From Saprospiraceae bacterium (GTDB lineage: Bacteria; Bacteroidota; Bacteroidia; Chitinophagales; Saprospiraceae), in contig JAHDGU010000008.1 of NCBI GenBank assembly GCA_020627535.1, forward strand, positions 62,001-126,000: DNA of 64,000 nucleotides. The letters are read 5' to 3'. Shown in pieces: positions 35,577-40,415 of the stretch. A model generated the notes under the pieces. That model was not told the DNA's origin. It was given only the letters and a program-made list of their open reading frames with translations, and made no database searches. Each line of letters begins with the position of its first letter. Position 1 is the stretch's first letter. Both the position numbers and the translations under genes were made by a program.

Positions 35577-38500
35577 CTACATATTCCGTCTATATTGCCC
35601 TCCGACTTCATAGAGGGCATGGGTGATCTGCCCGAGAGAACAGCTTTTCACTGTAGTCATGAGTTCCTCAAAGAGATTTTCATTTTTCAAAGCTTTCTGT
35701 TTGAGTTGGAGAAGAGCTGATTTTCTAGTCTCTTCATTGGCTTGATGCAGTCTGCCAAGCTCATCTATTTGGCTGATCTTTTCATCCTTGGTGGATCGGA
35801 TGACCTCTTGTGGAAGTACAGTGGGTGATCCGTCTTTGGACAAAAATGTATTGACACCGATGATCGGGTATTCTCCCGTATGCTTGAGCATCTCATAGTG
35901 CAGACTCTCTTCTTGGATCTTGCCTCGCTGGTACATGGTCTCCATGGCACCTAGGACTCCACCACGATCTGTGATCCTGTCAAATTCAGATAGCACGGCT
36001 TCTTCTACGAGATCGGTGAGCTCCTCTATGATGAAGGAGCCTTGGAGCGGATTTTCGTTTTTGGCCAGACCGAGTTCGTGATTGATGATCATCTGGATCG
36101 CGACTGCTCGTCTCACGCTTTCTTCCGTGGGTGTAGTGATAGCCTCGTCATAGGCATTGGTATGCAGAGAGTTACAATTGTCATAGATAGCATAGAGTGC
36201 TTGCAGGGTGGTACGGATGTCATTGAATGAGATCTCCTGAGCGTGCAGGGATCTACCTGAGGTCTGGATGTGGTACTTGAGTTTTTGTGATCTTTCTCCA
36301 GCCTCATACTTGTATTTGAGGGCTTTCGCCCAAATGCGCCGTGCCACACGGCCTATCACCGCGTACTCAGGATCCACACCATTGCTAAAGAAGAAACTCA
36401 GATTGGGCGCAAATGCGTCGATGTCCATACCTCTGCTGAGGTAGTACTCGACAAAGGTGAAGCCATTGGCCAGGGTAAAGGCGAGCTGCGTGATAGGATT
36501 AGCTCCCGCTTCTGCAATGTGATAGCCGCTGATCGACACCGAATAGAAATTTCTGACACCTTGATCGATGAAGTACTGCTGCATATCACCCATGAGACTG
36601 AGTGAAAACTCTGTAGAGAAAATGCAAGTGTTCTGTGCCTGATCTTCTTTGAGGATATCAGCTTGTACAGTGCCACGCACCGCTTTGAGTGCTCGTTCTT
36701 TCATTTGCGCGTAAGCGCTCTCGTCTAGCACCTCATCTCCTGTGATGCCTAGTAGCACTGTGCCAAGACCATCATTGCCTTTGGGGAGATCACCACGATA
36801 TACAGGACGAGCGATGCCGCGGTCGTCATACTTGCGCTTGAGAGCTGCTTCTACACGATCTTCCAGCTGATGCTCTCGGATGTAGCGTTCGCACTGTTGA
36901 TCGATGGCAGCATTGAGGAAAAATGCGGTGATCGTGGCAGCGGGACCATTAATGGTCATGGATACTGAGGTCTTTGGATCGCAGAGGTCAAAGCCAGAAT
37001 AAAGCCTCTTGGCATCGTCTAGCGACGATATGCTGACACCGCTATTGCCGATTTTCCCGTAGATATCGGGCCTGTGATCTGGATCTTCGCCATAGAGCGT
37101 CACGCTATCAAAGGCTGTGGAAAGTCTTGCCGCCGGCATATCAGAGGCGAGGTAATGAAAGCGCTTGTTGGTGCGCTCTGGATTGCCCTCTCCGGCAAAC
37201 ATCCTGGTCGGATCTTCACCCTTGCGCTTGAAGGGAAATACACCAGCCGTGAAGGGAAATTGGCCAGGAACGTTTTCTTGCATACGCCATCTGAGAATCT
37301 CTCCGTAGTCGCGATATCTCGGTAAGGAGATTCGCGGTATCTTATTGTGACTTAGTGATGTCGTGTAGGTCTGCACTTTGATATCGCGTGACCTGACTTT
37401 GTACACATACTCGTCTTCCTTGTAGGCGTCACGTAGGCTTGGCCATGATTCAATGAGCTCTAGGCTCTCACGATCCAGATCTTGTCTGAGCTCTTCGCGC
37501 TTGGCATCCAAGAGTGCCTGTGCCGTTTGGTCCTCGATGAGCTGCAGGCTGTTTTCGATACTATAAAGCTGAGTAGCGATCTTGCTTTGCTTTTCTGCCC
37601 GCTGATCGTAGCTGCGATTGTTCTCTGCGATCTCCGAGAGATAGCGTACCCGACTTGGCGGTATGATGTAGATCTTTTCAGACTCACCCGTGCGAAGATT
37701 GATCTCTGAGCTTTCGCCAAAATGTGTTTTTTCTTGAAGAATGCCCATTAAGCTTTTGTAGAGCTGATTGGTGCCGGGATCGCTAAACTGCGAGGCAATG
37801 GTGCCTACCACAGGAATCTTCTCATCAGCAAGATCCCAAGCATTGTGGTTCCGGACATATTGCTTTTTGACATCTCTGAGGGCATCCAGAGCGCCTCGCT
37901 TGTCAAATTTATTGATGGCTATGAGGTCTGCAAAGTCGAGCATATCGATTTTCTCGAGCTGGCTTGCAGCACCGTATTCTGGTGTCATCACGTACATCGA
38001 GATGTCTGAATGATCGACGATCTCAGTATCTGACTGACCGATGCCTGATGTCTCTAGGATGATCAGGTCAAAGCCAAAAGCCTTGAGGATTTCAAGCGCT
38101 GATTTGATATGCTTGGAAAGTGCCAGATTGGCTTGTCTGGTGGCGAGGCTACGCATGTATACCCGTTCATTGCTGATCGCATTCATCCTGATCCGATCGC
38201 CCAATAGAGCCCCGCCGGTCTTTCTCTTGGTCGGATCGATAGAGAGGACCGCAAGATTGAGCTCTGGGAAGTCGAGCAGAAAACGTCTGATGACCTCATC
38301 GACCAGACTAGACTTACCCGCACCACCTGTACCTGTGATTCCTAGCACAGGAGCTTGCTTCTTTGCACTTTGAGACTTGATCTGTGATATCAGAGACTCT
38401 GCTTGCTCTGGATAGTTTTCTACATGTGAGATGAGTCGGGCGATGGCATGATGCTGAGTGGGCTCAAGGCTTTTGAGTTCACCATTGAGCTTGGCTCCGA

Positions 38501-38951
38501 TGGCAAAGTCGCAGTGCTGGATCACATCATTGATCATGCCTTGGAGCCCCATCTCTCGACCGTCATCTGGACTGTAGATGCGCGTAATCCCGTAGTCCTG
38601 TAGTTCTTTGATCTCTGCGGGTAGGATCGTGCCACCACCGCCTGCGAATATCTTGATATGACCACAGCCTGCCTTCTGAAGGAGGTCATACATGTATTTG
38701 AGATATTCTACATGACCACCTTGGTAAGAGGTGATGGCGATGCCTTGCACATCTTCTTGGATCGCGCATTCTACGATTTCTTGTACAGAGCGATTGTGTC
38801 CGAGATGGATGATCTCCGCTCCCGTGCGCTGCATGATGCGACGCATGATATTGATGGCTGCGTCATGCCCATCAAAGAGTGATGCAGCTGTGACGATTCT
38901 GATCTTATGTGTCGCCTCATAGGGCGCGGCTTGAGCTGGATGCATGGTCAT
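35577..38951 (-). CDS. icmF: fused isobutyryl-CoA mutase / G-protein chaperone
   Basis: 1124 aa from the ATG at 38951 (another ATG at 38945). Domain order is that of IcmF: an N-terminal B12-binding domain (about 15-150, with [10 protein letters not shown] where the cobalt-ligating His lies), a MeaB-like GTPase (Walker [11 protein letters not shown]), a linker, then the mutase barrel (about 570-1120; TIDG-like loops and [14 protein letters not shown]). It interconverts isobutyryl-CoA and n-butyryl-CoA or a related acyl-CoA using adenosylcobalamin, with the built-in GTPase guarding the cofactor. Two hairpin-motif copies are inside (36320-36337 and 37709-37723). Confidence 0.95.
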
Positions 38952-38954
38952 ACA

Positions 38955-38966
38955 GTGTTTAAACAC
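38955..38966. promoter_or_regulatory. GTGTTTAAACAC palindrome just upstream of icmF
   Basis: A 12-bp perfect palindrome, 3 bp from the ATG at 38951. It supports starting the gene at 38951 or 38945 rather than at the TTG at 38972, which would translate it. Confidence 0.35.
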
Positions 38967-39017
38967 GAGCAAGGCTCATGAGTTTGGTTTCCACGACCAC
39001 AAAGTTACGGGCAAGGG

Positions 39018-39632
39018 CTATCGCAAAAGCTGTCTAAATTCTTGCAAGATCATACTGGTCGCACCCCAGATGATATCACCGTGGTGGACAAATGACGGCA
39101 CTTTGATTTTCATATGGCCGGCGGTGACTGTCGATCTCGTGATATCCATATCGATCAAGTCTTTGACGGGCAGCTGTATGATACGATCGACTTCTGATCG
39201 ATCGGGCTCAAAGTTGATAGGCATTTTCGCGAAAGCGACATATGCCGCTACTAGGAATCCAGAGACAGGTATGTAGATATCTGTGAGTCTTCCCAGGAGC
39301 TCAAGCGTTTGTGCATCTACACCCATCTCTTCGCAGAACTCACGTCGAGCCGTGTGCTCGAGATCGAGATCAGTGTCTTCGTACTTGCCACCGGGTAAGC
39401 TGATCTGGCCGCTGTGACGATCCTGGTCATGCGTATTGCGCTGCATGAGGACAATGTGCTCTTCACCATCTTTGGGATAGAGACAGATCATGACGGCTGC
39501 TTTTTTGGCGGAAGCCAGATCCTCTGAGGCATAGGATATAGGTCTACCACTTGGTGCCAGAACCCAATGTGCCGCAGCACCTGGTAGCGGCTGAGAGAGT
39601 CTTTGGATGAGTTGCTGCCTGTGGGACTGGAT
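39018..39632 (-). CDS. NUDIX hydrolase, CoA-pyrophosphatase type; start codon non-standard or lost
   Basis: The Nudix box is GGKYEDTDLDLEHTARREFCEEMGV split by the usual loop (GK...REFCEEMGV), giving diphosphate hydrolysis, probably of CoA-like substrates. The first ATG is at 39491, but it would remove a conserved N terminus. The frame stays open upstream for 47 more codons, and these read like the N terminus of this family (LIQRLSQPLPGAA, then VLAPSGRP, then AKKAAVMICLYP). The stretch ends one codon (TAC) after the TAG stop of hemD, in the same frame, with no ATG, GTG or TTG. I give the first ATC (39632) as the nominal start. An unusual start codon, readthrough from hemD, or a broken gene are the options. 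Confidence 0.8.
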   Translation of the reverse strand: MQSHRQQLIQRLSQPLPGAAAHWVLAPSGRPISYASEDLASAKKAAVMICLYPKDGEEHIVLMQRNTHDQDRHSGQISLPGGKYEDTDLDLEHTARREFCEEMGVDAQTLELLGRLTDIYIPVSGFLVAAYVAFAKMPINFEPDRSEVDRIIQLPVKDLIDMDITRSTVTAGHMKIKVPSFVHHGDIIWGATSMILQEFRQLLR

Positions 39633-39635
39633 GTA

Positions 39636-40415
39636 CTAGCCTTTATTGGAGACCTGAATGTACTTCTCCAGAGCCATAGTCATACTAGTGATGCCTGGTG
39701 CAGGAGCCTTGATATTGATGTGAAGACCTTTTTCCTCCACAGCTTTTGACGTGCTATTGCCGAAGATGGCCAAGCGAGTCTCATTTTGCTTGAAGTCTGG
39801 AAAGTTCTCGTACAAACTCTGGATGCCTAGTGGGCTGAAGAAGACTAGAATGTCATAGGTGATGTCCGCAAGATCAGAAAGATCACTACTTACCGTCTTG
39901 TACATCATCGCTTCTTTCCAGTCAAATTCTTTTTCAGTCAAGAACTTAGTGATAGGAAGTGCACCGAGATTAGAGCAAGGAAGTAGAAACTTCTCTTTCG
40001 TACGGTGTTTCATGAGCGCCGTCTCGAGATCCTCGATATTTCTCTTACCGACAAAGACCTTTCTCTTGCGATATACGATGAACTTCTGGAGGTAGTTTGC
40101 GATCGCCTCTGTAAGACAGAAGTACTTCATCTCGCTACTCACCTTGATGCGCATTTCTTCGCACATCCTGAAGTAGTTTTCGATAGCATGATTGCTCGAA
40201 AATATGACCGCCGAATACTCATCCGGTCTCAAACGTGCTTTGCGAAATTCCTTCTCTGTGACCGACTCTACGTGAATGAATGGTCTCCAATCAATCTGAA
40301 GTCCATACTTCTGCTCAAGTCTATAGTAGGGTGATCTTACTGGCTTTGGTTGAGAGACGAGGATTGTCTTTACCTTTTTATACGTCTCTTTGACAACAGT
40401 CTTAGCTTCCTGCAT
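39636..40415 (-). CDS. hemD: uroporphyrinogen-III synthase
   Basis: 259 aa, two-domain HemD fold with low sequence conservation but recognisable stretches: TILVSQPKPVRSPYYRL at the start, YSAVIFSSNHAIENYF, LLPCSNLGALPI, and DILVFFSPLGIQSLYENF near the second domain. It closes the linear tetrapyrrole hydroxymethylbilane into uroporphyrinogen III for haem and B12. It sits 32 bp downstream of a DUF4271 gene and directly before the NUDIX frame. A DUF4271-hemD pair is a familiar Bacteroidota arrangement. Confidence 0.9.
   Translation of the reverse strand: MQEAKTVVKETYKKVKTILVSQPKPVRSPYYRLEQKYGLQIDWRPFIHVESVTEKEFRKARLRPDEYSAVIFSSNHAIENYFRMCEEMRIKVSSEMKYFCLTEAIANYLQKFIVYRKRKVFVGKRNIEDLETALMKHRTKEKFLLPCSNLGALPITKFLTEKEFDWKEAMMYKTVSSDLSDLADITYDILVFFSPLGIQSLYENFPDFKQNETRLAIFGNSTSKAVEEKGLHINIKAPAPGITSMTMALEKYIQVSNKG

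Follow-up and report, generated by a model that had tools for sequence, protein, structure and literature searches.

A NUDIX hydrolase gene without an ordinary start codon directly behind hemD in Saprospiraceae, and a candidate restart on near-cognate codons

A NUDIX hydrolase gene lies directly behind hemD in the window (the whole 64,000-nucleotide stretch of Saprospiraceae DNA analysed here) and has no ordinary start codon. Start-less versions of the gene occupy the same place in seven other genera, which suggests that the case is no one-off and that translation may restart on a substitute codon. Here, we document the sequence of the junction, the homology of the gene, the position of the candidate codon, its recurrence among orthologues, and the contrast with control genes.

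Results

The hemD-NUDIX junction

In the window, hemD occupies 39636..40415 on the minus strand and encodes a 259-aa uroporphyrinogen-III synthase (PF02602, 96.3 bits against a cut-off of 27.5), ending in the TAG at 39638-39636. The NUDIX frame runs from 39635 to 39018 on the same strand, with 205 open codons between the hemD TAG and its own stop, and the two frames are in register across the TAG with no further stop between them. The initial annotation had described this frame as devoid of ATG, GTG, and TTG as far back as the hemD stop, and our reading of the open frame confirms it. The first such codon is the ATG at 39491 (39489..39491, minus strand), 48 codons past the TAG and 47 past the ATC at 39632, and its use as a start would delete the first 47 codons, including the conserved LPG codons at 39579..39587 (minus strand). 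None of the three codons begins anywhere from 39676 to 39581 in any of the three minus-strand frames, a stretch flanked by an ATG at 39677 (inside hemD) and a GTG at 39580. When 359 kb of this genome were scanned for coding potential, a procedure that flags long leads and yields no rate of ATH starts, 219 gene-like frames were returned and 16 flagged; among the flagged frames, the NUDIX gene had the longest start-less open lead (48 codons, the next being 31).

The proposed initiation codon, ATC at 39630..39632 (minus strand), would give a gene of 39018..39632. It lies 3 nt past the hemD TAG on the same strand, which is a spacing typical of termination-reinitiation coupled pairs, and the junction departs from such pairs in that the downstream start is not ATG, GTG, or TTG. 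A putative weak Shine-Dalgarno-like run, AAAGG (39640..39644, minus strand), can be read 7 nt before the ATC; it is missing in the same-genus relative and is a minor feature.

Identity of the gene and its coding leader

The product scores 55 bits against PF00293 (NUDIX; cut-off 21.1) and is thus a member of that family. Its best NCBIfam model is the CoA pyrophosphatase NF007980, at 74.9 bits and hence under the equivalog cut-off of 134, and its best match among solved structures is the CoA pyrophosphatase 1nqy (E 2.8e-11). The product is best explained as a CoA-pyrophosphatase-like NUDIX hydrolase, the substrate being a prediction.

The alignment to 1nqy begins at residue 21, the ATG coming 28 residues later, at residue 49, and the same-genus orthologue aligns at 48% identity over query residues 8-205; the conserved LPG occupies residues 17-19 of the NUDIX frame. 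Because both alignments start well before the ATG at 39491, the stretch that precedes it is, by homology, coding. Neither a broken frame nor a shortened alignment, as expected of a decayed gene, was found: the 205-codon frame is open and the alignment reaches residue 205.

Directly downstream of the NUDIX gene lies icmF (window 35577-38972), which encodes a fused isobutyryl-CoA mutase/GTPase (1786 bits against a cut-off of 1500), and the two genes possibly form a CoA-related neighbourhood. An open frame of 110 codons on the plus strand (window 38944-39276), antisense to the NUDIX gene, is probably due to chance.

Position of the ATC relative to orthologue starts

The initial annotation had proposed a comparison with sister species. 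In the same-genus orthologue, the hemD TAG is followed at once by an ATG that lies 17 codons ahead of the LPG glycine, and the ATC at 39632 stands at exactly that distance, i.e., at the position of the sister ATG. Seventeen codons is also the commonest distance from ATG to LPG among ATG orthologues without a tightly adjacent hemD (47 of 160 loci), followed by 18 (38 of 160), the ATG nearest 18 having been taken where a frame had several. A second ATC (39608) is only 9 codons from the LPG, and the shortest ATG distance among the 160 loci is 11. On this comparative basis, the position of the sister ATG favours the earlier suggestion that the ATC at 39632 serves as a start by coupling to hemD termination.

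Recurrence among orthologues

A NUDIX match was present in 369 of 398 genomes of the family, roughly half of which were read. After removal of duplicates and five filler stretches (L113-L117), there were 222 distinct orthologous frames, of which two without an LPG anchor and two cut by a contig end were also dropped before counting (220 anchored, 218 readable). Many of the relatives are fragmented assemblies, hemD was recognised in them by a C-terminal motif rather than a profile, and the patterns for the LPG anchor and the hemD motif were widened during the analysis, whereby a few older loci became readable.

The 218 readable orthologues comprised 177 with ATG, 27 with only GTG or TTG (a few of these calls are perhaps false, the sole codon lying inside hemD or near the LPG, e.g., in G062, G107, and G322), and 14 with none of the three. 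These 14 span nine genera (g1, g18, g27, g61, g82, g105, g106, g110, and g134), and in 12 of them the hemD stop lies no more than 30 nt from the expected (modal) start. At the 47 loci with hemD this tight, a limit chosen after first looks at the data, there were 17 ATG, 18 GTG/TTG, and 12 start-less genes, vs 160, 9, and 2, respectively, at the other 171 loci. By genus, start-less genes occurred in 8 of 14 with tight hemD and in 1 of 88 otherwise. The initial annotation had also raised a recent loss of the start codon, an account that is too narrow for a start-less state found in nine genera, eight of them with the NUDIX gene directly behind hemD.

These final counts include genus-targeted loci, the targets being mostly genera with a member in which hemD is next to the NUDIX gene. 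In the sample that preceded targeting, starts other than ATG were found at 7 of 13 tight loci vs 9 of 157 others (p=2e-5), and none of the three codons at 2 of 13 vs 2 of 157 (p=0.03). This sample excludes the window's genome (G000) and four genomes chosen for early query coverage (G111, G083, G135, and G372), and retains G313 (ATG, not tight), which was chosen for the same reason.

On a FastTree phylogeny of the part from the LPG onward, the start-less states require 11 changes and the non-ATG states 21. Six independent pairs on supported branches differ in spacing; start class follows spacing in about three of these and opposes it in none (median p 0.25), and the start-less state alone follows it in about one of six (p 1), in a test that is underpowered. 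Given so few informative pairs and a median p of 0.25, the link between hemD spacing and start class is not established independently of kinship.

In two NUDIX orthologues of g27 (L019 and L088), a CTG stands 19 codons from the LPG in a frame with no ATG, GTG, or TTG, and hemD ends more than 200 nt upstream, consistent with a non-canonical start that does not abut hemD. In G037, from another family of the order, the NUDIX gene (L026/L099) follows a different gene through TAA CCA ATA ATC and its sole ordinary start codon is a TTG ten codons before the LPG; this locus is perhaps another case of a near-cognate start, with an unrelated gene as the coupling partner.

Near-cognate codons at the hemD stop

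All 12 coupled start-less genes have an ATC, ATA, ATT, or CTG in the NUDIX frame at -4..+9 nt of the hemD stop, whereas the two remaining frames have one at 6 and 3 of these loci, respectively, and codon use predicts 4.6 loci; the -4..+9 stretch was set after looking, five of the 12 loci come from one genus (g106), and the candidate codon is ambiguous at some (e.g., in G111 and G083). In four genomes (G195, G111, G083, and G162; loci L093, L103, L104, and L225), an ATA shares bases with the hemD stop, giving ATAA or ATAG in the place that ATGA occupies in ordinary coupled pairs, and one G-to-A substitution would make ATAA out of ATGA, with a change to both the stop and the start. Three species of g106 carry a CTG 20 codons before the LPG. 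The NUDIX gene is out of frame with hemD at 9 of the 12 loci and in frame at 3, including the window. A local duplication of the hemD tail was considered as the source of TACATC and rejected, since 638 of 2000 codon-shuffled heads did as well as the best match.

Control genes

Four control genes were read in overlapping sets of 30 genomes each, mostly with the NUDIX gene tight behind hemD (G037, G027, and G225 were included although theirs is not, and G268 and G196 entered the coaE/ruvX set only). All readable starts were ATG in hisF (18 of 18, 15 tight; 1 of 19 loci without a readable anchor) and hisA (17 of 17, 15 tight; 1 of 18 without). For coaE, 21 starts were ATG and 2 GTG/TTG among 23 (11 tight, all ATG; 4 of 27 without an anchor), and for ruvX, 21 were ATG and 1 TTG among 22 (none tight; 6 of 28 without an anchor, and that of L369 doubtful). 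In total, 92 control loci, 12 of them without an anchor, gave 80 readable starts: 77 ATG, 3 GTG/TTG, and no start-less gene. We therefore rejected a general laxity of starts in these genomes. Since tight hisF, hisA, and coaE keep ATG in 41 of 41 readable cases from the overlapping 30-genome sets, the laxity looks gene-specific, with coaE as the only control that is both weakly expressed and tightly coupled. Of the 30 genomes, only 19 had a hisF match above the cut-off and only 16 a hisA match (19 hisF and 18 hisA loci were examined and weaker matches left out), so that several start-less genomes, such as G195 and G083, have no his control.

A further candidate, infC, was rejected as a control for ATH starts because its frame in the window's genome offers a TTG. 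At this locus (L057), no ATG precedes the conserved N terminus, and the start is likely a TTG, the sixth codon counted from the in-frame stop upstream.

Discussion

We consider it probable that ribosomes, once they have completed hemD, initiate again on a near-cognate codon (the ATC at 39632 in the window), a reading favoured by the link between spacing and start class and by the positions of the codons. After termination at the hemD stop, they would start anew no more than a few nucleotides away, on ATC in the window and on ATA, ATT, CTG, TTG, GTG, or ATG in relatives. With hemD delivering the ribosomes, selection on the start codon to remain ATG would be weaker, and a weak codon may even hold the enzyme at a low dose. 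We infer all three of its elements, namely initiation at ATC, dependence on hemD translation, and a low level of product. Set against re-initiation are the 17 of 47 tight loci that keep ATG, the two start-less g27 genes that are not close behind hemD, the choice of both the 30-nt limit and the -4..+9 stretch after first looks, and a spacing link that, on the tree, is not separated from kinship.

How efficient such a restart might be can be gauged from other systems. In Escherichia coli, AUA in an aUAA junction failed as a coupled start, and with active ribosome recycling factor (RRF) a UAAua junction gave 0.4% vs 24.7% for UAAUG, rising to 17% after RRF inactivation, when all three frames were read at 12-17% (PMC9955659). 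For ATT, a value near 0.3% of that of ATG is cited (PMC10666635), and excess IF3 lowers re-initiation (PMC2268962). On the other hand, there is proteomic evidence that E. coli, in rare cases, starts at ATC and ATT (PMC13245402), Shine-Dalgarno sequences occur in about 10% of overlapping pairs in Bacteroidetes (PMC6728339), and the classic coupled pair galT/galK has the same +3 spacing as the window junction (PMC12548453). Given the E. coli figures for UAAua and ATT, a near-cognate codon alone would yield little protein; hence either traces of the enzyme are sufficient, or this lineage differs in its initiation or recycling. The window's genome carries genes for both IF3 and RRF (frr).

Several other explanations have to be weighed against re-initiation. 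The in-register arrangement of the window, with no stop but the TAG between the two frames, would permit readthrough into a HemD-NUDIX fusion, as the initial annotation had proposed, and the same holds for two more of the 12 start-less coupled loci. Because the remaining nine are out of frame with hemD, readthrough fails as a general mechanism; the same-genus relative, moreover, has a TAG followed by an ATG. Nor did the search for fused orthologues yield any, the longest open frame among the listed matches at E <= 1e-20 being 317 aa, too short for a fusion (one weak match of the NUDIX search, E 4e-4, sits in a 652-aa frame). We regard readthrough as very improbable, although for the window taken alone, with its two frames in register, it may still occur. 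We hold a base-call error at the start codon to be just as remote a prospect: the junction is known from one assembly only, with no second genome of the species found and a genus search that gave one other species, but this genome is 99.67% complete in 25 contigs, and the start is likewise missing in assemblies of eight other genera.

AUC is a poor start codon in E. coli. This, and the fact that the first canonical start in the frame is the ATG at 39491, would fit a gene that has lost its start and is either unexpressed or translated as a truncated enzyme from that ATG. Such a loss seems quite unlikely, however, for a gene whose leader and LPG are conserved as in ATG orthologues, whose alignment to 1nqy starts at residue 21, whose frame is intact to its stop, and whose start-less state recurs in nine genera. 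It is also conceivable that poorly recycled ribosomes at the hemD stop resume in a nearby frame regardless of any start codon, which would account for the free drift of the codon and has a parallel in the reading of UAAua in all frames, at 12-17%, by RRF-inactivated E. coli (PMC9955659). Yet a codon-blind mechanism does not predict an enrichment of near-cognates confined to the NUDIX frame (12 of 12 vs 6 and 3), frr is present in the window's genome, and the tight hisF, hisA, and coaE genes retain ATG throughout; we therefore judge this explanation unlikely as well.

Returning to re-initiation on near-cognate codons, one may speculate, tentatively, that in many genera of the family the identity of the start codon has ceased to matter for the NUDIX gene behind hemD, such that any near-cognate codon at the stop (or none) would serve, with ATAA or ATAG replacing ATGA in a coupling specific to this gene. 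The junction also hints that the dose of the enzyme, a possible consumer of CoA, is controlled at the level of translation. More broadly, annotation-based surveys of overlapping genes presuppose a G as the last base of the start codon (PMC10666635), so junctions of the hemD-NUDIX kind are easily truncated or misplaced. The family offers a natural series of ATG, GTG, TTG, CTG, ATA, ATC, and ATT at one homologous junction, together with tight ATG controls from overlapping genomes, which makes it testable how far the delivery of ribosomes from upstream can replace recognition of the start codon. A literature search by title and opening of the abstract found no paper on starts other than ATG, GTG, or TTG, either at hemD-NUDIX junctions or among this phylum's coupled genes, which does not prove that none exists.

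Among known systems, the CoA pyrophosphatases (NF007980 and 1nqy) are the closest relatives of the product by profile and structure, although it falls below the NCBIfam cut-off and its substrate is predicted. Weak natural AUU starts, fixed in E. coli, are found in infC and pcnB. As in those genes, a low-efficiency codon may limit the dosage of the NUDIX enzyme; unlike them, the NUDIX gene abuts hemD and its codon differs from genus to genus. The unscheduled translation that follows failed recycling (PMC9955659) likewise restarts near a stop without AUG, but in E. coli it depends on RRF being inactive and extends to all frames, whereas the hemD-NUDIX junction is enriched for near-cognates in one. 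A further parallel is with termination-reinitiation coupled pairs, which, as described in three studies (PMC6728339; PMC10666635; PMC12548453), share with the window a start placed from -4 to a few nucleotides from the stop, an SD-poor phylum, and a common strand. Their common spacings use starts ending in TG (NTGA and TAATG), and rare -5 overlaps might use ATT (PMC10666635); the hemD-NUDIX junction differs in presenting ATC, ATA, ATT, or CTG at one and the same gene pair in eight genera.
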